Shown: piece by piece, positions 9,928 through 33,326 of the stretch
How the letters are laid out: every line of letters begins with the position of its first letter
Position numbering within the stretch: position 1 is the first letter of the stretch
Assembly: GCA_030666865.1 (NCBI GenBank)
Contig: DAOUWZ010000009.1
Location: forward strand, 1-40,316
Source of the DNA: a bacterium
GTDB taxonomy: Bacteria; Patescibacteriota; Patescibacteriia; S139-126
Length of the DNA: 40,316 bases
Reading direction: 5' to 3'
The notes under the pieces: model-generated
The model's input: the letters and a program-made list of their open reading frames with translations, nothing else
What the model was told of the DNA's origin: nothing
The model's database searches: none
Made by a program: the position numbers and the translations under genes

Positions 9928-12900
9928 TTATTGACAAACTATAACTTCTTGAGTAGTTTCGCGGCTAAAACCAACATTAGGTTGAGTACTTTCCTCAGAC
10001 TCATGCCCCCAATTATCCCATAAATCTATAGTGATTCTATGTCTCTTGCATGCTCCTCCTTCGCATTCACTGCAAGAATTTTGAACATCTGCTTCAGACT
10101 CATAATACTCATATCTTTTTTCAATAATATGCGGATCTGTTGAATATGGTCGATGATCAAAACTACCTGAATAAACAGTAGGCATACCACCATCTCCCCA
10201 ATTAATTTCATATTTTCTAAGTGGTTTTTGATGAGGAACTACATCAGAAGTAAACTTTAAAGTGACCAAACCACCTGAATTCAATACAATTTGATTTTCG
10301 CTATCATTCAAAAGTATATTTCCAATAATAGGCAACCTGCCATTTGGAGATAAAAGGTGCGGAGTTCTATCCCAATCACCTTCTGGATTAGAAGTTTGAT
10401 TACCATAATTATCACCATCCCAAGTCCAATAATTATAAACTTTCCCATAAGGTCCTGAAGTAAGATCACTGGCACTAGCATAAGGAATTCCAGCATGAAT
10501 ACCACTAACAACAGGAACTCGTTCTTCTCCAATCCCACAAGTACCATGCTGTTCATCTATTACATGCCATGTAAATGAACCATCTCCATTTTCTATTTTA
10601 CATCCAGCAACTGGAATAACCTGCCAAGAAGTTACCGCGCCACCAGGTGTTCCGATTGAGCCAAAAGGATCGTTTGGATCTGTTTTTGTTATGCCATTTA
10701 CACTTAAAGTATAATCATCAGACTGCATACGATTGAAATAACTGACTTGATGCACATTATTACCGTCATCATAAGCTGTTTGCGCTACTTGAGTACAAAA
10801 TATAGCAGATGGGTTGGTATTATTAGCACTCCAAACTTCACCTAAAATTTCATAAGTCTCGCCAGCACAACCCCAATCAATATAACGTTTATTAGTACCA
10901 TTAGCGCCACACTGATCACAACCTGTTGAATAATCATTATATGGTGAAGCAGTACTAGCTTCTCTTTGGGAAAAACAAAGATCTACATCACTACCACCAC
11001 ACACATAAGTTCTATTAGAAATCTTTTCATAAGTTGATGAAGCGGTAACATATGAAAAATTTTCTTCATTATAAACTGTCCCCCAACCATAGGAACTATC
11101 TATAAACCATCCAGCAAAAGCACCATGATTTCGATAATAACTCTCACTATTTCCCAAACGTTGACAACCATAAGGGACATAAAACATTTGTTCACCACTA
11201 CCATCACAAGTACCATGTTCTTCACATCTCAATAAATTGTTACTATATACCGTACATTCACCTTCATCTTTATTTGCAATATCATTTTCTGCGTCACAAT
11301 CTTCCGGTCCCCAACCATCGCAATCATCTACTACTGTTGTTACCCACTCATAAATTTCTACTTTATTAAAATATTCTCCAATAGAATTCAAACATGAATC
11401 ATCAATAGTACTAATACATGCTGAAAATCCTCCGCCAATTACATATGATTCAATATCTCTATCATTGCTATATAAACAATAATCTTCACCATTAGCAAGA
11501 GCAACATCTCCAGCACCTTCAAACATTTCGGCTCTACTATAACCTACTAATCTATGGTCGCGTGGTGAACTATTCCATGCGTCCATAAACTGTGGAGTAG
11601 GTTTAGCTACTCTAGCAATTTTATCACAACCATTATCAGGAACTAAACACACATAACGAGGAAACTCTATACCAGCGTTGGATAAAGCAGGTGTGACACT
11701 TCTTAATGCTGTTACAGTTGAAACATCTTGAGTAACAGTACAATAATACACTGATGCTAAATCATCATAATAAAGCGGATTTTCAACTGTACCCAAAAGG
11801 TCAGAACTGCCTGCCGGCACATCAATTGGCCACCAATTCACGCAATACCTGCTATTATTTGGATCAGGCTCTACGCAATATCCCGGCCAACCGGTAAATT
11901 TGGTTCCGTCTTTTGTATAATTACAATCCAAGGAATCAGCGTTTGGATAAAGCCGGCATGACTGCCTGATATATTCTGGTTCAACTCCTGACTCAGATGC
12001 CACCAATACTGGCCTAATTTGAATATCATCAAAATAAGCATCACCCTCATCCACTTGCCATAAAGTCAATCTAATACTAACATCACTAACTGTGTTCTCA
12101 AAAGTCAAAGCAAACGGTTCCCAACCATCACTGGTACCAACAAAACCACCGCTTAAATTCCCTAATTCATCAGCATCATTATTTTCCCAAATTTCAACAT
12201 TTACTCTTGGCCTAGTTACACCCGAAATAGTTTCTCCGCTAACACCAGAATATTTCAAATAACCGTTTATTACATATTCACCTGGATCAAGATCAATATG
12301 CTGTGTTAGTTTAACATTACTTGAATCAACAGCGACATCTCCTTCAGGATGAACATACAGCCAAGCAGCTACATCGCCGTCAACTCCTGGAAAAGAGACA
12401 CCTTCATCAACTATTGAACCGCCAGCCTGAGCTTCATAATATTCCCAACCAGCGTCATCGTCTGGATTTTCAGGAGTATCAAGAATATCTATGTAAAACA
12501 ACCCTACTGTGCTAGTACCTGTTTTTTCAAAACTTGGATTCACTAAATCTTCAAAAACACCTCCTCTTTGTCTCATACTGCCAAAAGGATAATATCCAGG
12601 AATTACACCATCTCCAGTCGGATAACCGCCAGACCATTCCATGCCAGCTTTAGTCATACCAGTCATTATTGCCAAATCATCTACTGTATATTGATTATCA
12701 GGATAATCACTCGCTCTATACACCTGATTACCAACAATTTCAATCACATCACCACTATCACCATTTTCCAATAAAGGTCTTGGAAAAGAATTGCACCGAC
12801 CGCTAGCATCAAGCCTATTACAAGCTCCAACAGAAAAACATCTATCTTCACGATTATTTTTATCATCATAAGCCACTATACTGGCAGTGCAATAAAGCCA

Positions 12901-15900
12901 TTCATCACAGACCCGATCTTTTCTCACTTTCAAAATAACATCAGCGTCATTGGTGTTATTATCAGATACTGGTGCCGCACCATCAAAACTTGCAGCTGTT
13001 GAATATATATTAAACGCATCTACCTGATCAAAAAGCAAGCAACCAGCTTCTCTATCAACAACAGTACAACTACCTTTATCAACTTTTTGATCAAAATAAT
13101 AATATGAGCTATTTGTAAGATGAGGTTTGCATAAACCATTATTTCTTAAACTCGTATTACCACCCATTGTGCAATTTACATCTTCCTTACATTTTAAATT
13201 TTGATCATTGGTGCAATATTTCACACCTTCTGGATCAATATATTGCTGACATCCAGATTGCGCCTGCGGACACAAACCAACCCACTCCTCGTAATATTCA
13301 CTGTTATTATGAATTGGTTGAATATTCCAACTATCAATACAAATTCCATTATCACTGCATTCTGCATTAGTCAAACAGTTTAAATCAAAATCATTGCTGC
13401 AAACTTTATTATGCTGGCTCGGAATAGGCGGACACGCATCTTCTGTTCCTTTGATATACCAACCTGATTCATCCGTCACTACTTTATATTCACAAACCCT
13501 ACTCCCTGGATCAATATAACATTCAGGAAAACCTGTTTGCTTATTGGAATACCCTTCACAAAATAAACTATCTCGTTCGCAGACACTTTTCTTATAATTA
13601 TCTGGATTATCCAAAATAAACACATCGCTAAAATCTTCTACTTCATGCCTGAATCTATCAATTCCAGATTGCCTGTCTAAAATCGCACGACCTGCTAACC
13701 TGCAACCAACCATTCCGCTTTCACAACGATTCTCCTTGTTATTTACCAAATAAACCAGCTGATCGTTATTAATCATAATATTATCAGTCTCATTTGGACC
13801 ATAAGGCATCTCAGCTTCATCATAAAATTCACCGTGACCAGGATCATATATCTCTCTATACGGATTGTCTGTATTCTGCGTATCAATCAGCGCCATACAG
13901 CCTACTTTTGCATCACTGCACAAACTGCTAAAACTCAATAAATTAACATGGCTGTTGCTCATATCCATATAAGCTTCGCAACCAAGCTGTCCGCCGTACA
14001 TATCACAAACTTCCGGCGTATTCCAAGAATCTTTGATCAAATAATAACTGTCGGTCACTTCCCTGACAATAATATTATCTAAATAGCCTGAGGGGCCAGT
14101 AACTGATAATAAATCATGGCCATCATCACTTATTTCATAATCAATATAAATTGGTCCAGCACGATAATAATTCCATTCCCTATTAACAGCTTCTGAGGAA
14201 GCGCTAGCTGATCCAGGTGTATCTGTATTATCAAAAGTAAATGTCATTGCTCCGCCAGTATCACTTCTGGCCCAAAAAGAAATTACATAGCTTTTACCCT
14301 GTTCCAATAAACCATCCATATCCCGATCCATATTACCACCTGGTTTTTGTATTGAATGTCCACCAACATAAACAGATTCTGAGGAAATAGTAGCGTCAGA
14401 CCAAATACTGACAGAATCCCCCTCTATACCCATATTTTCAAAATCATCTTGACTAATAATATTCACTACATTGCCATTGTTACCACGATATTCATGACAA
14501 CCAACTGCCTGCGTCCGGCAAGAATTGCTCAATGAAGCAATCCCATAAGTAGTGGCGCCATCTAAGGATCTTCTGTAAGGATGACAATCATCAGTGGCAA
14601 AAACTACAGTAGTAATATCCATTTCAAAAGTAGCGCCATCTGAATCAATGAAAGTTCGGCAGTTAAATTCATCAGTATCAGCACTGCACCCAGATCCTGA
14701 AGGAGAACCTCCTGGCGCTTCCAGCATCCAGGTCTTCAACTGATACCCAGCAGTGTCCGAGCCTTCCCAAGTATAAAAAACTTGGGCATCGGGATCGTCT
14801 GGTAAGATACAATTTCTTAAAAAAGAATAATGTTCAATCGCTTCCCCGCCTTTATCAGCTTCATCCAAATTGGTGAATTCTTCACAACCGACTTCGCTAG
14901 CCTGGCAACTATCAGCAGTATCAGGAATCAACTGCACCACAGTATCTAAATGGTTGACATCAAAACTAAGTTCCATACCAGTTGCCAATTGCAAATACTG
15001 GTCATAGCCAGAGCATTCACTACTACACATATCATTTTCCTGAATTACTGCTGGTACTGGCGGATCGCCATTCATCGGCGTATAAAACTCACAACCCACT
15101 TCTTCAGCTGTACACTTTTGCGCAAAATATTTGCACTCAGGATCAGGAATAAGCTCAAGATCAGCCGGGCAATTCAAATAAACGGGCGGTTTCTTCAAAT
15201 ATAGTTTAGTAACTTTTGCCCATTCTCCATAAGACTGATCCGGATTATCTTGAACATAATGATAAATTGACCCAGTAGTCGCATCATACCCAGCCGGCGG
15301 ATTATTAAAAGAACTTAAAGAAAAAAAAGTGTTACACCCGTCAAATTTTGCTTTACATTCTTTTACTTCATTATCAAAAAACCTAGTATAAGAAATATTT
15401 CCCCAATCAACCCGATTGTAAACATCGCCAAAAGTAATAATTCCATCAACACCAGCCGATTCACCTGCTTGATTATAAACATCTTCCGCCCATTCAAATT
15501 CACCTTCACTATTATTAATTTTATACATAGAATACCAACTACACCCGACATCACCTGGACTGCAATTTGTTAAGGTGTTAGTTAAATAAGAATTTGATCC
15601 TTGCTTATTTTTTAATGTTTCGCAAGTAGCAAATTGTGACTTACAAGCATCACCCTTGAAATGCCAAGTACTTCGTTCTTTGGTACAATAACCCATTTGC
15701 AAACACTTGCCTTTTGCATCTTCTTGAATACAACTAACTTCATCCGCGCAATAATCATCCAATCTATTAACAATGGTATCCAATTCGAAAATAACATTTC
15801 CGTTCTCATCTCTTTCTCCGCTATCAACTTTAACAGTACGTCTGTCCAATTCTTGTTCACCTGCCCCTTCTGCTTGACAACTATGATCTGGAGCTTTTAA

Positions 15901-17364
15901 TACCCAATTTGGATCAACTAAATGATAAAATGGAGAATCCACAGCATCATAATCTTTCATAATCTCTTCCAATCTATATTGTTTGTTGCTGCTGGTATTT
16001 ATTTCCTTAATATAAAGCGCGGCTAGTTCCCAAGTAACTGGAATTACCCGATATTTACGGAGTACCACCATGCTTTTATATGAAATTCCTTCCAAAGGAG
16101 TTGGTTCAGTTCCATCACTTTTAAAACCAAAAATTTTATCCTTTAAAACAGGCGGACTTGAATCTCCACTGCCTTCAACAGCCTCCCCAATAGTCATCAT
16201 CTGATTAATAGCTTCAGCAAAAGACTGGTCAATTATACAATGATTCCAGGATCGCATTTTTGTATTTGATGGACAAGCCAACATCACACTGACTGGACTA
16301 AAACTTCCACCAGACTTGATGTTTGGCTCCATAAAATCTGCAAAATGAGCTTTAGCAGCCATTGCTCCTCCTCCTGGAACAGGCGCAGTAACACCAACGC
16401 TACTACTACCGCCAGATCCTTTTTTGGATGGAAACAATCCTTCTCTTATCAATCTTTGTAAATAATTTTGAGCAAAAGTGCTCAAAAAAAGTTTTGCTGA
16501 AGAAAGTAAAGGATCTTTATTCATTACATTCATAGCAGTTTCACCCATAGTTTTCTTTATACTTTCGTCTATTAATTCCCCTGGAGTAGAAATATTACCG
16601 CTAATTAATTCCTTAGTAGCCATAGCCGGATTAGCTTTTTCCCTTTCTTTCTTTTTAGCTTCCATTTCCTTTTGAATAGCGTCTTTGGACATTGATTTAA
16701 GCTCAACAAAAGCAGATAAATAATTACTACTGCCAAAATAATCCTGACTAAACTTAATTTTATCGCCCTTATCCAAAGCATTAAAGACATTACCCAATCT
16801 ATCAAAAGTAAAACCCGTTCCTCCCAATATTTCAGTATTTTGCAAATTCTTTATCATTTTGTCAAAAGTACAACTAGGTGCTCCTGGTTTCATGGTTTTC
16901 CCTAGATTCAATGTTAGCTTAGCGCTAAATAAAGGATCAATCGGCTTACACAATGATTGTCCTAATATTTCCGTACCAAGATTATCAATAAACATAGCTC
17001 CTGCCTGCTCAGCTGTATCTTTAATATAATCTTTCCAATTTGTCCTAAAAAATTTTTCCTTCTGCCCTTTATCTCCAGAACTTAATGCTACTGCGCTATC
17101 ATAAGCCAATTTTTTCAAAAAATAATCACCTGCCTCATAATAAGCAAATTTAAGCCCCTTATCAATTAACCAAGAAAAACCTTTTTTTACCCACTCAACA
17201 ATACGAGGAACATCAGCCACAATTCCCCATTGAGCCTGCGCTGGTTGAGGAAATGAAAACAAAGCCACTGAACCTGAACTAAAAAAAACAGTAAAACCCA
17301 AAACAATACTGATCAGTATTTTCTTAAAATAATATTTTTTTGGCGGAGTTTTAGATGATGACAT
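9928..17364 (-). CDS. Giant Cys-rich secreted/surface protein (2478 aa) with repeated C-x5-G-C motifs, CBM/jelly-roll-like segments and PKD-like C-terminus
   Basis: Hydrophobic N-terminal leader ending AQAQWG; many Cys pairs; C-terminus VTLKFTSDVVPHQKPLRKYEINWGDGG...HIIEKRYEY is PKD-like. Confidence 0.8.
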   Translation of the reverse strand: MSSSKTPPKKYYFKKILISIVLGFTVFFSSGSVALFSFPQPAQAQWGIVADVPRIVEWVKKGFSWLIDKGLKFAYYEAGDYFLKKLAYDSAVALSSGDKGQKEKFFRTNWKDYIKDTAEQAGAMFIDNLGTEILGQSLCKPIDPLFSAKLTLNLGKTMKPGAPSCTFDKMIKNLQNTEILGGTGFTFDRLGNVFNALDKGDKIKFSQDYFGSSNYLSAFVELKSMSKDAIQKEMEAKKKEREKANPAMATKELISGNISTPGELIDESIKKTMGETAMNVMNKDPLLSSAKLFLSTFAQNYLQRLIREGLFPSKKGSGGSSSVGVTAPVPGGGAMAAKAHFADFMEPNIKSGGSFSPVSVMLACPSNTKMRSWNHCIIDQSFAEAINQMMTIGEAVEGSGDSSPPVLKDKIFGFKSDGTEPTPLEGISYKSMVVLRKYRVIPVTWELAALYIKEINTSSNKQYRLEEIMKDYDAVDSPFYHLVDPNWVLKAPDHSCQAEGAGEQELDRRTVKVDSGERDENGNVIFELDTIVNRLDDYCADEVSCIQEDAKGKCLQMGYCTKERSTWHFKGDACKSQFATCETLKNKQGSNSYLTNTLTNCSPGDVGCSWYSMYKINNSEGEFEWAEDVYNQAGESAGVDGIITFGDVYNRVDWGNISYTRFFDNEVKECKAKFDGCNTFFSLSSFNNPPAGYDATTGSIYHYVQDNPDQSYGEWAKVTKLYLKKPPVYLNCPADLELIPDPECKYFAQKCTAEEVGCEFYTPMNGDPPVPAVIQENDMCSSECSGYDQYLQLATGMELSFDVNHLDTVVQLIPDTADSCQASEVGCEEFTNLDEADKGGEAIEHYSFLRNCILPDDPDAQVFYTWEGSDTAGYQLKTWMLEAPGGSPSGSGCSADTDEFNCRTFIDSDGATFEMDITTVVFATDDCHPYRRSLDGATTYGIASLSNSCRTQAVGCHEYRGNNGNVVNIISQDDFENMGIEGDSVSIWSDATISSESVYVGGHSIQKPGGNMDRDMDGLLEQGKSYVISFWARSDTGGAMTFTFDNTDTPGSASASSEAVNREWNYYRAGPIYIDYEISDDGHDLLSVTGPSGYLDNIIVREVTDSYYLIKDSWNTPEVCDMYGGQLGCEAYMDMSNSHVNLLSFSSLCSDAKVGCMALIDTQNTDNPYREIYDPGHGEFYDEAEMPYGPNETDNIMINNDQLVYLVNNKENRCESGMVGCRLAGRAILDRQSGIDRFRHEVEDFSDVFILDNPDNYKKSVCERDSLFCEGYSNKQTGFPECYIDPGSRVCEYKVVTDESGWYIKGTEDACPPIPSQHNKVCSNDFDLNCLTNAECSDNGICIDSWNIQPIHNNSEYYEEWVGLCPQAQSGCQQYIDPEGVKYCTNDQNLKCKEDVNCTMGGNTSLRNNGLCKPHLTNSSYYYFDQKVDKGSCTVVDREAGCLLFDQVDAFNIYSTAASFDGAAPVSDNNTNDADVILKVRKDRVCDEWLYCTASIVAYDDKNNREDRCFSVGACNRLDASGRCNSFPRPLLENGDSGDVIEIVGNQVYRASDYPDNQYTVDDLAIMTGMTKAGMEWSGGYPTGDGVIPGYYPFGSMRQRGGVFEDLVNPSFEKTGTSTVGLFYIDILDTPENPDDDAGWEYYEAQAGGSIVDEGVSFPGVDGDVAAWLYVHPEGDVAVDSSNVKLTQHIDLDPGEYVINGYLKYSGVSGETISGVTRPRVNVEIWENNDADELGNLSGGFVGTSDGWEPFALTFENTVSDVSIRLTLWQVDEGDAYFDDIQIRPVLVASESGVEPEYIRQSCRLYPNADSLDCNYTKDGTKFTGWPGYCVEPDPNNSRYCVNWWPIDVPAGSSDLLGTVENPLYYDDLASVYYCTVTQDVSTVTALRSVTPALSNAGIEFPRYVCLVPDNGCDKIARVAKPTPQFMDAWNSSPRDHRLVGYSRAEMFEGAGDVALANGEDYCLYSNDRDIESYVIGGGFSACISTIDDSCLNSIGEYFNKVEIYEWVTTVVDDCDGWGPEDCDAENDIANKDEGECTVYSNNLLRCEEHGTCDGSGEQMFYVPYGCQRLGNSESYYRNHGAFAGWFIDSSYGWGTVYNEENFSYVTASSTYEKISNRTYVCGGSDVDLCFSQREASTASPYNDYSTGCDQCGANGTNKRYIDWGCAGETYEILGEVWSANNTNPSAIFCTQVAQTAYDDGNNVHQVSYFNRMQSDDYTLSVNGITKTDPNDPFGSIGTPGGAVTSWQVIPVAGCKIENGDGSFTWHVIDEQHGTCGIGEERVPVVSGIHAGIPYASASDLTSGPYGKVYNYWTWDGDNYGNQTSNPEGDWDRTPHLLSPNGRLPIIGNILLNDSENQIVLNSGGLVTLKFTSDVVPHQKPLRKYEINWGDGGMPTVYSGSFDHRPYSTDPHIIEKRYEYYESEADVQNSCSECEGGACKRHRITIDLWDNWGHESEESTQPNVGFSRETTQEVIVCQ

Positions 17365-28341: not shown

Positions 28342-28695
28342 TTATTTACTACACTTCATGCAATAAATAGCAGCCGGAAAAGCTTTGATTCTAGCTTCCT
28401 GAATCGGACCACCACACTTTTCGCACAATCCATAGGTTCCTTTATCAATTTTTTCTAAAACAGTATTGATATTCTTAATCATGCTTTCTAAATTTCTCTC
28501 TATTCCTAAACGTGATGAATAAGTATCAACTTCAGCAGCATTGGAATCAACATCATCTCCCCAATTTGGAAAACGACTGTTAAAATCATCAGCAATTTTT
28601 TCATTCTTTTCAGCAATAGTTAAAAGTTCATCTGCCAAACGATTTTTTTCTTTCAATAAAGCTTCCTTGGTTTCTTTTAAAGATGTATCATCCAT
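28342..28695 (-). CDS. DksA/TraR C4-type zinc finger family protein
   Basis: GTYGLCEKCGGPIQEARIKAFPAAIYCMKCSK. Confidence 0.9.
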   Translation of the reverse strand: MDDTSLKETKEALLKEKNRLADELLTIAEKNEKIADDFNSRFPNWGDDVDSNAAEVDTYSSRLGIERNLESMIKNINTVLEKIDKGTYGLCEKCGGPIQEARIKAFPAAIYCMKCSK

Positions 28696-28813
28696 ATATT
28701 TTATTTAATAATCTCTCTATATAACAGTATATCAAAAAAATACTGCAAATACTATAAAAGAATACAAATATTTAACAAATATTAAACTTTCTATTTATTT
28801 ACTGATATTAAAT

Positions 28814-28847
28814 AAAAATAAAAGACGCCGGGCAATCCCGGCCTCTT
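28814..28847 (-). terminator. Intrinsic terminator of the ncRNA/leader
   Basis: GCCGGG-ATTG-CCCGGC hairpin followed by GTCTTTTATTTTTATTT on the - strand. Confidence 0.8.
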
Positions 28848-29163
28848 AAAAATAAATTTATAGGTGGATTTTGCCCGACGCTTATAATCACTTAGATTAA
28901 TGACAGATAATTATTTAATTAATAAATAATTATCTATACTCCCTAAATGATCTTTTTAAACGCCTTCCGACTAGGTCGTAATTTCACTGCCAATCTTGGT
29001 GGGTTGATAATTTTTTTGTAAAATTATTCCCTTTTTAACTATTTTTGTTTTTGTTAATGTTTTATGGTCGGTTCATAAAAACCGATTTAGCAGTAAAAAA
29101 ATTATTCCAAACTACAATACTTAGCTGTTTTAGAATAACTTTTCTAATAAATGAACTTAATAC
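28818..29163 (-). ncRNA. Unassigned ~345-nt structured RNA (or attenuator leader) upstream of a dksA-like gene
   Basis: No ORF; consensus promoter upstream, terminator at 3' end, several perfect or near-perfect helices with G-U pairs. Confidence 0.7.
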
Positions 29164-29169
29164 ATCTTT

Positions 29170-29198
29170 ATTATATCAATGATTTCAATTTTTGTCAA
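29170..29198 (-). promoter_or_regulatory. Consensus sigma70-type promoter of the ncRNA
   Basis: TTGACA - 17 nt - TATAAT (both hexamers exact) on the - strand. Confidence 0.85.
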
Positions 29199-29215: not shown

Positions 29216-29359
29216 TTTTTAGCTAATATTAGCTAAAAATAATTATTAAATTTAATTAACAATTTAAATTTAATAATTATTGACCAAAAAATGTTTTCAA
29301 AAAATGTGGACAAATTAACATTTTATCCACACCTTTACTAAAATAGCTAATATTAGCTA
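29216..29359. promoter_or_regulatory. Palindrome/DnaA-box-like cluster
   Basis: TTTTTAGCTAATATTAGCTAAAAA (29216-29239), 18-bp IR 29238-29255/29264-29281, TGTGGACAA (29305-29313), TTATCCACA (29323-29331), TAGCTAATATTAGCTA (29344-29359). Confidence 0.6.
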
Positions 29360-29379: not shown

Positions 29380-30756
29380 TTATTCAATACAAATTAAATA
29401 ACTATTATCAAATTTTGAATTATTTTTTCCTATAAAAATACTTTCTACACCAGCTTCAACCAAATTTTTACTAAAATTAGCATCAAGTTTAATTAACTCA
29501 CTTGAATTTTCTACACATTTATTATTTACGCCTGCTTTTGCCTGTAAAATATATCTATTAATCAACTTCATACTATTCCCTAACACAGTAAAGTCACCAT
29601 CTTTAAACCAAATAAAATAAGAATCTTTATTAAAATACACGACATTTACAATTTTTCCGCTAATATTAGCTGTTTGATACTCAAAATCAACAGGCATTAC
29701 TTTAAATTCAATTATTTCTGTACTATCAGGTAATACAACAGTTTCTTCTGTAGGCATTTGCCACCCCATTCTGGTTTTCATTATTTCATGAACATCCATA
29801 AATCCTTGTTTTGTAAACATGCCCCTGCCAATCCATAAATAATTTCGATTGTCATTTGCCCTATTTTCTGATAAATAAAGAGCTAAATCATGACTCTCTT
29901 TGGTTTTTGATAAAATGTTAAAAATATTGAAATTATACTTATCTTCTATGGGTTTAATAATCTCTAGTAAATAATCTTGGCTATTAAAAACATTTTTATT
30001 TTGCTCTAAATTATGATTCATAACCAGAATATTGGCATCACTAAAATTTTGAACAAAACTTCGTGAACTTTCATGGAAAAAAGGCAACTGAAACACCGAC
30101 TTTTTCGGTAATTTTTCTACTGCCAAATTATTTTTATCCGAATAAACCAACCATTCGCCACTTATCTTATTTTTAACTACATTCGCTAAACTACCTGACA
30201 ATTCATAATTTTTATCAATATTCCAATACAAAAAATTACCAATCCCTCTATTTACTTTGTAATTACTCAAATATTTTTTAATTGAATTGTCATGATCTAC
30301 TTTATAATTCTTAAATCTTTCAATAAATTCCCAGCTTGAAGAAATCACAACTATTTTATCTATTTTATGAGCATGCCAATTTTCTGCTAAAATACTGTAA
30401 TCAAAATTATCGTCTCGATCATACAAAAACCAACCTGAATAATCTTTTCTGTCCTGCTGATATAATAAAAAACTTAATTCTCTAAAATCAAATTTTTTTA
30501 AATCTTCGTATTCTGCTCCAAAATTTTCATTGATAACCTTAGCCAAACCTAAATATTCCGAAGATAAAGGCTCTCTAAGATGCATGTACCAAATTATATC
30601 TTGGTATGGAATATATTTACTGATACGATCTTGTTCTATCTGCCAATCTTCATAAATAATCAAGGCCGCCCCAAAAACTGCGGTTAAAATCAGCAACACT
30701 GTAAACCAGATACGATAATATAATATTTTTTTGTTTTTATATTTAAACATAACCAA
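29380..30756 (-). CDS. Hypothetical membrane-anchored protein
   Basis: 458-aa ORF with N-terminal TM (IWFTVLLILTAVFGAALII); family not recognised. Confidence 0.65.
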   Translation of the reverse strand: MVMFKYKNKKILYYRIWFTVLLILTAVFGAALIIYEDWQIEQDRISKYIPYQDIIWYMHLREPLSSEYLGLAKVINENFGAEYEDLKKFDFRELSFLLYQQDRKDYSGWFLYDRDDNFDYSILAENWHAHKIDKIVVISSSWEFIERFKNYKVDHDNSIKKYLSNYKVNRGIGNFLYWNIDKNYELSGSLANVVKNKISGEWLVYSDKNNLAVEKLPKKSVFQLPFFHESSRSFVQNFSDANILVMNHNLEQNKNVFNSQDYLLEIIKPIEDKYNFNIFNILSKTKESHDLALYLSENRANDNRNYLWIGRGMFTKQGFMDVHEIMKTRMGWQMPTEETVVLPDSTEIIEFKVMPVDFEYQTANISGKIVNVVYFNKDSYFIWFKDGDFTVLGNSMKLINRYILQAKAGVNNKCVENSSELIKLDANFSKNLVEAGVESIFIGKNNSKFDNSYLICIE

Positions 30757-31118: not shown

Positions 31119-33326
31119 TTATCTTCGGTGATTATTTCTATTATTTGATCTATGATTATTCGACCTGTGATTATTATCTCTACGTGGCGGTCTTTCTTCA
31201 TAACCTTCTGGTTTTGTCATTAAAGCTTTACGAGACAAATTAATTCTACCCTGATCATCTATTTCAATAACTTTAACTCTCATGCTATCACCAACCTTTA
31301 CCACATCTTCAACTTTCTCAGTCCGTTTCCAATCAAGTTCAGAAATATGAACTAAACCTTCTTTACCTGGCAACACTTCTACAAAAGCGCCAAAATCCAT
31401 CAACCTAGTCACCTTGCCATCAAACTCTTCACCGGCCTGCACTTCTCTGATAATATTTTTTATCCATTCTACTGCTTCTTTTACTCCAGCTTCTTTTACT
31501 CCAGTTACCACAACCAAACCGTCGTCTTCAATATCAATATCAACACCTGTCTGATCAATGATTTGATTGATAACCTTTCCACCAGCGCCAATTACTTCTC
31601 TAATTTTATCTGGATGAATATTGAAAGATTCAATCCGCGGAGCATATGGAGACATTTCCTGTCTTGGTTCTGCAATAATTTCTTGCATTTTTTTCAAAAT
31701 TACAAGCCTTGCTTCTCGAGCTTTAACAATAGCTTCTTGGCAAACTTGTAAACCTATTCCGCCCAATTTAATATCCAATTGAATAGCTGTGATACCTTGT
31801 TCTGTCCCAGCAACCTTGAAATCCATATCACCAAAATGATCTTCAATCCCTTGAATATCTGTCAATATTTTATAATCATTTTTATCTTCAGAATTTGAAA
31901 ACATTCCCATGGCAATACCAGCTACAGGATTAGCAATTGGCACGCCAGCATCCATCAAAGCTAAAGTTGAACCGCAAACTGACGCTTGTGAAGATGAGCC
32001 ATTGGATGATAACACCTCTGACACAACTCTAATAGTGTACGGAAACTCTTCTTTACCTGGAATAACAGATTCTAAAGCTTTTTCCGCCAGCGCTCCATGT
32101 CCAATTTCTCTTCTACCTGGTCCACGATTTGGCTTGACTTCTCCGACACTAAACCCAGGAAAATTATAATGATGCATGTATCGTTTTTTTCCTTCTAATT
32201 CCATGGTATCAAGTATTTGTTCAGCGCCAGGCGAGCCAAGTGTTACTACTGACAATACTTGGGTCTCTCCTCTGGAAAAAAGACCTGAACCATGAGTACG
32301 AGGTAATAAACCAACATCAACCCCCAATTCTCTGACTTCATCAAGTCCTCTGCCATCAACTCGCTTACTTTCTTTCATCACATAATCTCTAGCGGCTTCA
32401 TTTACATAATCGTCAATTTGCGCCAGACCTTGAGCACGCATTTCTTTAGTAACTTCACTGTCATCTTTTAAAACTTTTTCTAATTTAGTATTTATTTCTT
32501 TCAATTTATCTTTAAAATCATCTTTACTTTGATATGGAAAAAGCTTATTAAATTCAATGTTGCTCAAAAATTCCTTAACCTTCTTATCCAACAAAGCTCT
32601 AATTTCTTTTTCCTCATCTAACAAATCAGCATCAATCTTTTTTTCTCTACCAACCGACTCTTTAACTTCTTGCAAAAATGGAAAAAGTTTCTTCATATGC
32701 TTGTGACCAAATTCAATCGCCTCAAACATTATTTTATCTTCAACCTGATTACCATCAGCTTCAATCATAACGACCTCGTCTTTTGTCCCTACTAAAAATA
32801 AATCTAATTCAGATTTTGTTTTAGCTTCATTGGAAGGATTTACAACCCATTCACCTTCAATCCTGCCCATTCTGACACATGAAATTGGTCCATTCCATGA
32901 CACAGAAGAAATATTCAAAGCGCATGATGCTCCAATCAAAGCCGGAATATCAGGATCATTTTCTCCGTCAATTGATAAAACTGTAATAACCACTTGAACA
33001 TCTTTTCTTTCAGTTTCCTTAAACAATGGACGAATAGAACGATCAATCAACCTGCCAGTCAATACTGCTTCGTCAGTCGCTCTGCCTTCACGCTTAATAA
33101 AACGTGAACCCTTGATCTTTCCAGCAGCATAAAGCTTTTCTTCATAATCAACCATCAATGGAAAATAATCCACGCCTTCGCGAGGATTTATCCCTTGTAC
33201 AACTGTAGCTAAAATCATGGTATCTCCGTATTGTACAGTACAAGAACCATGAGTCTGTCCGGCTAACTTGCCGGTTCCGATAATCAATGGACGACCAGCC
33301 CATTCTGTCTTAAATTGTTTTTGCAT
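31119..33326 (-). CDS. pnp: Polyribonucleotide nucleotidyltransferase
   Basis: Two RNase PH domains, KH (IREVIGAGGKVINQI), S1 (FDGKVTRLMDFGAFVEVLPGKEGLVHISEL). Confidence 0.96.
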   Translation of the reverse strand: MQKQFKTEWAGRPLIIGTGKLAGQTHGSCTVQYGDTMILATVVQGINPREGVDYFPLMVDYEEKLYAAGKIKGSRFIKREGRATDEAVLTGRLIDRSIRPLFKETERKDVQVVITVLSIDGENDPDIPALIGASCALNISSVSWNGPISCVRMGRIEGEWVVNPSNEAKTKSELDLFLVGTKDEVVMIEADGNQVEDKIMFEAIEFGHKHMKKLFPFLQEVKESVGREKKIDADLLDEEKEIRALLDKKVKEFLSNIEFNKLFPYQSKDDFKDKLKEINTKLEKVLKDDSEVTKEMRAQGLAQIDDYVNEAARDYVMKESKRVDGRGLDEVRELGVDVGLLPRTHGSGLFSRGETQVLSVVTLGSPGAEQILDTMELEGKKRYMHHYNFPGFSVGEVKPNRGPGRREIGHGALAEKALESVIPGKEEFPYTIRVVSEVLSSNGSSSQASVCGSTLALMDAGVPIANPVAGIAMGMFSNSEDKNDYKILTDIQGIEDHFGDMDFKVAGTEQGITAIQLDIKLGGIGLQVCQEAIVKAREARLVILKKMQEIIAEPRQEMSPYAPRIESFNIHPDKIREVIGAGGKVINQIIDQTGVDIDIEDDGLVVVTGVKEAGVKEAVEWIKNIIREVQAGEEFDGKVTRLMDFGAFVEVLPGKEGLVHISELDWKRTEKVEDVVKVGDSMRVKVIEIDDQGRINLSRKALMTKPEGYEERPPRRDNNHRSNNHRSNNRNNHRR

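Follow-up and report, generated by a model that had tools for sequence, protein, structure and literature searches.

A predicted orphan RNA with a covarying kissing-loop core recurs across Patescibacteria

Among the structured bacterial RNAs described to date, raiA/ModT comes closest to the locus reported here: it is transcribed from a SigA consensus promoter, reaches an abundance like that of rRNA and is found in conserved synteny (PMC11706538). A search of the open literature, with subscription papers and bioRxiv beyond its scope, did not turn up any account of an RNA of this kind from Patescibacteria. These bacteria, most of them uncultured, have tiny genomes and represent a very large share of bacterial diversity. 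Here we analyze a window of 40,316 nucleotides (GenBank assembly GCA_030666865.1, contig DAOUWZ010000009.1, the whole stretch of DNA under study), in which a first-pass annotation made from the letters alone had pointed to an orphan structured RNA. Comparative analysis makes it probable that this locus carries an independent non-coding RNA gene, transcribed constitutively and at a high level, that belongs to a phylum-wide Patescibacteria family and whose product would form the core of a trans-acting RNP.

The predicted gene occupies positions 28815..29163 of the minus strand, with a length of about 345-349 nt, and is supported by the stability of its fold and by homologues in the family, the class and the phylum. 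Upstream lies a TTGACA-N17-TATAAT promoter (29198-29170, minus strand; -35 box at 29198-29193, -10 box at 29175-29170) that agrees with the consensus at 12 of 12 positions, just as the first-pass annotation had stated, and that places the predicted transcription start, downstream of it, near 29161-29165. At the other end, after a GC-rich hairpin, the sequence and a terminator scan delimit a T-rich tract (28811..28824, minus strand), with the 3' end of the RNA near 28814-28818. The scan found one terminator-like site in the stretch (stem 28842-28827, then a T run) against 0.2 expected, and the open reading frames of at least 20 aa that overlap the RNA are limited to those of 24, 27 and 45 aa. 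Together with the PF01258 match of the downstream gene, these scans bear out the earlier description of some 345 nt free of ORFs, followed by a terminator and then a dksA/traR-like gene. The promoter is retained in the homologues in the form TTGA(C/T)N-N17-TATA(A/C)T, with the 17-nt spacer in nearly all of them; its score is at least 10.5 in 29 of 33 homologues compared with 5% of shuffles, and at least 11.5 in 55% compared with 0.15%. Because the promoter is near-perfect, the RNA is presumed to be strongly expressed.

The minimum free energy (MFE) of the window RNA, -96.4 kcal/mol, lies far below the -58.0 +/- 4.4 of its dinucleotide shuffles (z = -8.7), and one homologue (L003) folds with z = -13.0. 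The helices seen by eye in the first-pass annotation are all in the sequence, and nearly all of them appear in the MFE fold. The core of the RNA consists of the helix P2, the hairpin P3 inside P2, a AAACAAAAACAAAAA strand and the hairpin P5a outside P2; all elements are given here on the minus strand. The 5' hairpin P1 (AAAAGUUAUUC.../...GAAUAAUUUUU, 29097..29143), taken from the MFE fold, a three-genome alignment and the homologue sequences, is found in the near family and is missing from some distant homologues. P2 is a long helix, UCUACUGUUC/GAACGGUAGA, with nearly invariant C-G and U.G, and both its 5' strand (UUUUACUGCUAA, 29087..29098) and its 3' strand (UUGGCAGUGAAA, 28982..28993) are assigned by covariation. 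In the class alignment 12 of its pairs vary on both sides, with 44 such cells compared with 16.8 in shuffles and a covariation score of 0.308 compared with 0.162, and slid controls collapse; in the phylum alignment there are 66 two-sided changed cells against 23.5 and the score is 0.443 against 0.256 in shuffles. P3, UUUUAUG-[AACCGAC]-CAUAAAA (29060..29080), has a loop of 5-14 nt across homologues. The AAACAAAAACAAAAA strand, present in the window as the conserved single strand AACAAAAACAAAAAU (29041..29055), is the most constant block of the RNA in alignments A4 and A5. The MFE fold further contains the hairpin P4 (GGGAAUAAUUUU/AAAAUUAUCAACCC, 29001..29031), which is followed by an ACCA motif and is seen by eye in homologues as GGU.../...ACCAC, while it scores weakly in the covariation count because it is poorly aligned. 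P5a, CGACCU-[AGUCGGA]-AGGCG (28961..28978), sits just outside P2, and a long AU-rich hairpin domain of the MFE fold, P6/P7 (GAUCAUUUAG/CUAAGUGAUU; AGAUAAUUAUUUA/UAAAUAAUUAUCU; 28886..28952), shows compensatory differences in the homologue L003.

Homologues were sought by BLASTN, which returned two relatives within the family, both immediately upstream of traR-lspA, and by covariance models. R1, a model of the RNA core made from three sequences, gave many weak hits in the class, a dozen of them just upstream of traR, and reading of the upstream regions of 104 genomes revealed the same architecture in many. The larger models R2 (23 sequences) and R3 (33 sequences) cover about 112-136 positions each. 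R2 located the RNA in 159 of 381 genomes of the class Paceibacteria at E<=0.05, with many hits at 1e-7 to 1e-13 and mostly one copy per genome; in 38 class genomes for which more candidates were scored, 22 contained it. R3 located it in 41 of 380 genomes of a phylum sample at E<=1e-3, a count that takes in training genomes and two class members. As an independent check on the hits, 30 of 46 in class genomes outside the models share the strand of traR and fall 188-455 nt upstream of it, a position on which the models carry no information. These figures describe a sample, searched with models built partly from sequences chosen for these helices, and the E-values are rough, with out-of-class hits above about 0.01 mixed with noise; since the models are partial and the filters strict, the figures are probably a minimum. 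Shuffled and permuted sequences served as controls. In a pattern scan of named genomes three Patescibacteria records proved to be real homologues, one from Candidatus Paceibacter sp. (DYGA01000001) and two that carry the title Patescibacteria group bacterium, and four unrelated records were taken as chance. The R1 hits L072, L073, L076, L077, L080, L081, L083 and L085, at least one of which falls inside a gene, miss the other features and were likewise taken as chance matches in A-rich DNA, and the weak out-of-class hits L255, L257 and L260 look doubtful. BLASTN and the covariance models thus place the RNA in the family, the class and other Patescibacteria classes, and by sequence comparison it recurs across many Patescibacteria families. 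The genomes of this phylum in which no hit was obtained count against the phylum-wide reading and would be explained by lineage loss or by the partial models missing the RNA.

The loops of P3 (CCGAC, 29071-29067) and P5a (GUCGG, 28971-28967) are complementary and are predicted to kiss. The pair CGAC/GTCG (29070-29067 with 28971-28968), given in the first-pass annotation as a helix, turned out to be part of this contact. The loop sequences differ between families and their pairing covaries: CCGAC/GUCGG in the window is matched by CCUAC/GUAGG, CUUGACU/AGUCAAG and GCGAUC/GAUCGC in homologues and, in the R2/R3 hits, by UCUAACC/GGUUAGA, UCUAGUC/GACUAGA, UCCAACC/GGUUGGA, CCGAUA/UAUCGG and CCGAUCAC/GUGAUCGG. 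With the A motif as anchor, a kissing score of at least 40 was obtained in 37% of 82 upstream regions compared with 2.4% of shuffles, and a score of at least 45 in 19.5% compared with 0.2%. Among 42 R2/R3 hits, many of them from other classes and most absent from the training sets, 69% scored at least 40, against 11% of permuted pairs; R3 contains neither the P3 pairs nor P5a, and the pairing covaries in genomes located with this model too. We interpret the changes in the two loops as covariation of a loop-loop contact. P2 and the kissing loops thus both covary above their shuffled or permuted controls, and comparative analysis establishes them, together with the sigma-70-type promoter and the intrinsic terminator, as features of the locus.

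The terminator is a hairpin in which GCGUCGGGCAA (28881-28871) pairs with UUGCCCGGCGU (28835-28825) across a 35-nt loop (28825..28881, minus strand); the window would also allow a shorter stem, GCCGGG/CCCGGC (28842-28827), nested within it. The same kind of long hairpin, with a loop of 22-49 nt, occurs in about 31 of 34 homologues, and across homologues it has 6-12 bp, a loop of mostly 25-45 nt and a following T stretch; we take this single long terminator hairpin to be the conserved 3' element. An alternative pairing, P5 (GGCGUUU 28964-28958 with AAGCGUC 28883-28877; 28877..28964, minus strand), is present in the window and in near relatives and excludes both P5a and the long terminator hairpin, the strand 28883-28871 being able to pair with either 28964-28958 or the terminator strand 28835-28825. 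Since P5 and P5a share bases, two mutually exclusive states can be drawn. The switchable 3' end proposed in the first-pass annotation therefore exists in the window as a drawable exchange, but it is weakly conserved, with a P5 score of at least 14 in 32% of 34 homologues compared with 16% of permuted controls. An exchange between P5, the element labeled X and the terminator was considered as a conserved riboswitch platform and was rejected over the same 34 homologues, in which X and the 3' terminator strand form one long hairpin and P5 is weakly kept. As P5 stands modestly above permuted pairs and the long terminator hairpin is general, the switch is not taken as established.

These strands are central to the alternative that survives best, a long cis-acting leader (a riboswitch or attenuator) of the traR-lspA operon, in which P5a/P5 and the terminator strands would set read-through; the first-pass annotation had also raised a long leader. 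The operon begins outside the RNA with the neighboring traR/dksA-like C4 zinc-finger gene (28342..28695, minus strand; PF01258). Among the class genomes with both features the RNA precedes traR in 50 of 66, and several genomes of other classes have it upstream of traR as well. This frequent position would fit a cis role too, and the three strands can indeed swap partners in the window. Against a leader, the alternative pairing is barely conserved, the RNA is large for such an element, and traR has a promoter of its own behind the RNA terminator, with the extended -10 box TGATATACT (28726..28734, minus strand); a promoter-like score of at least 9 is found at this place in 45% of homologues, often with an extended -10, compared with 6.7% of shuffles. 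Moreover, the RNA lies elsewhere in 16 of the 66 genomes, one of which (G050) carries a second, diverged traR-like gene downstream of it. The genome G148 has kept the RNA beside a convergent comM, with an upstream gene of the window's kind and no traR downstream, and in G122, G096 and G028 the RNA is found less than 1 kb after pnp, far from traR. The window neighbors are pnp, a membrane protein gene, traR, lspA and comM; the surroundings of homologues were checked against this gene set, and some of them were inspected by eye. Going by names that we read from the sequence, the RNA of G122 presumably follows a kinase-like gene and precedes an RNase HII-like gene, that of G075 lies upstream of what we take to be a CCA-adding-type enzyme gene, and in other classes the RNA appears between a presumed recA-like gene and traR or before a presumed lgt-like gene and traR-lspA-comM. 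The traR-leader idea was abandoned once homologues away from traR had been found. The separate promoter of traR, and a position other than before traR in about a quarter of the homologues, make the long leader unlikely; the varied neighborhoods point instead to a stand-alone gene in a favored neighborhood.

Several other features of the surroundings were recorded. The polynucleotide phosphorylase gene pnp (31119-33326, minus strand), which encodes RNase_PH, KH and S1 domains, lies upstream of the RNA and stays close to it in many homologues. A 458-aa protein with no Pfam match is encoded immediately upstream of the RNA at 29380-30756 (minus strand), and several homologues have a gene of similar size and appearance, apparently for a membrane-anchored protein, in the same place. 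The palindrome GCTAATATTAGC occurs in three exact copies (29222-29233, 29346-29357 and 29659-29670; 0.21 expected in the window), the first of which shortly precedes the RNA promoter; comparable palindromes lie 5' of the RNA -35 box in about ten homologues, and many class genomes carry copies. It is possibly the operator of a class-wide regulator. Two traR matches contain an internal TAG or TAA stop (G119:C102:6272-6613 and G039:C41:1888-2238). A long palindrome at L067 1873-1996, a few hundred bases upstream of the G279 RNA, gives a match to a plant miRNA model in both orientations, each under the cut-off. The window also contains an ORF of 2478 aa (9928-17364, minus strand), which is very large given the genome size of about 1.1 Mb.

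A much less probable alternative is that the RNA is a very divergent version of a known housekeeping RNA, or stands in for one functionally, with 6S RNA (RF00013) as the most plausible candidate. The housekeeping-type promoter and distribution agree with this, and no 6S match was obtained in 19 relatives, an absence that says little because the model detects 6S RNA in just 5 of 14 control genomes. Proteins of the TraR/DksA type bind RNA polymerase, and a role in regulating this enzyme would fit the traR/dksA neighbor, a member of that polymerase-acting family. However, the RNA has no match to the 6S model and, in place of a long rod with a central bubble, shows a kissing-loop fold that spans about 345 nt; the genome also has a separate tmRNA (C52) and a separate RNase P RNA (C20). 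Just as improbable is a trans-acting base-pairing sRNA that targets mRNAs through its loops or its A-rich strand. The exposed A-rich strand and the RNA's own promoter and terminator would suit it, whereas such a size and so ornate a fold would be unusual among sRNAs, and the variable loops covary with one another within the molecule, the pattern that an internal contact rather than targeting would produce. Chance structure or a DNA-level element, which the AT-rich intergenic setting (where AT hairpins are common) and a local count of promoter-like sites that, the perfect one aside, equals the mean of shuffles might suggest, is in practice refuted by the covariation, and the phylum-wide homologues, fixed promoter spacing and favored position also oppose it.

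By sequence comparison, P2 encloses P3, the A-rich strand and P4, and the P3-P5a contact locks the fold. In the preferred reading, a stand-alone gene for a trans-acting RNA, the A-rich strand might dock into a compact tertiary core or bind protein, and the RNA would work in trans, forming the core of a stable and abundant RNP, with a housekeeping or growth-phase role by analogy with that proposed for raiA/ModT. The neighboring traR/dksA and pnp genes hint at a part in transcription control or RNA turnover. More speculatively, and with less than even confidence on our part, the RNA could be an ancestral, near-universal housekeeping RNA of Patescibacteria that stands beside rRNA, tRNA, tmRNA, RNase P RNA and SRP RNA, in an RNP whose role would have no counterpart in studied bacteria. 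Kept across many families behind a near-perfect promoter and matching none of the 4227 families in Rfam, the RNA is probably important to Patescibacteria and has been overlooked by annotation. Enrichment cultures with metatranscriptomes exist for the class Paceibacteria (PMC10936435), so expression of the RNA can be checked at once, and genetics exists for Saccharibacteria (PMC10633639); should the RNA also occur there, its function would be open to deletion tests.

With respect to known RNAs, Rfam gave no family at cut-off in the RNA stretch and nothing credible up to E 10, and permissive thresholds over the window and 38 homologous loci gave nothing consistent at the RNA; over the window, two tRNAs were the only Rfam features. 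The orphan status claimed at the outset therefore stands, and the family appears to be new in that it matches no known one, while orphan ornate RNAs as a kind are already known. Leader riboswitches and attenuators share with it a position 5' of a gene, a rho-independent terminator and, in the window, alternative pairings, but here the downstream gene varies and has a separate promoter, and the switch pairing is not clearly conserved. tmRNA (RF00023) is similar in length, loop contacts and possession of a single-stranded stretch; neither ARAGORN nor Rfam found a tmRNA at the locus, where no tag reading frame was seen, and the RNase P RNA model (RF00010) had no match there. OLE, ROOL and GOLLD are much larger than the RNA described here. 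They are also ornate orphan bacterial RNAs (PMC12286853), and Rfam showed no match to them at the locus. For raiA (RF03072) there was no hit at E<=10 in the window, at E<=5 in 18 homologous loci or at E<=2 in 20 further loci; because no homologue scanned matched this model, the first-pass suggestion of a raiA-like RNA fails as family membership and holds as an analogy alone. raiA/ModT is found in Bacillota and Actinomycetota, where its neighbors are comFC and raiA, in contrast to pnp, traR, lspA and comM here, and the core of our RNA, a P3-P5a kissing contact with an A-rich strand, has no match to its covariance model. Both RNAs nevertheless are stand-alone, a few hundred nucleotides long, provided with pseudoknot-type contacts, set in a partly conserved neighborhood and wide in whole phyla (PMC11706538), and both have a consensus sigma-A promoter and their own terminator, a combination of strong housekeeping promoter and terminator that is not specific to the raiA/ModT family. 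By this analogy, we favor a trans-acting housekeeping RNP that would be comparable to raiA/ModT in kind and unrelated to it in sequence.
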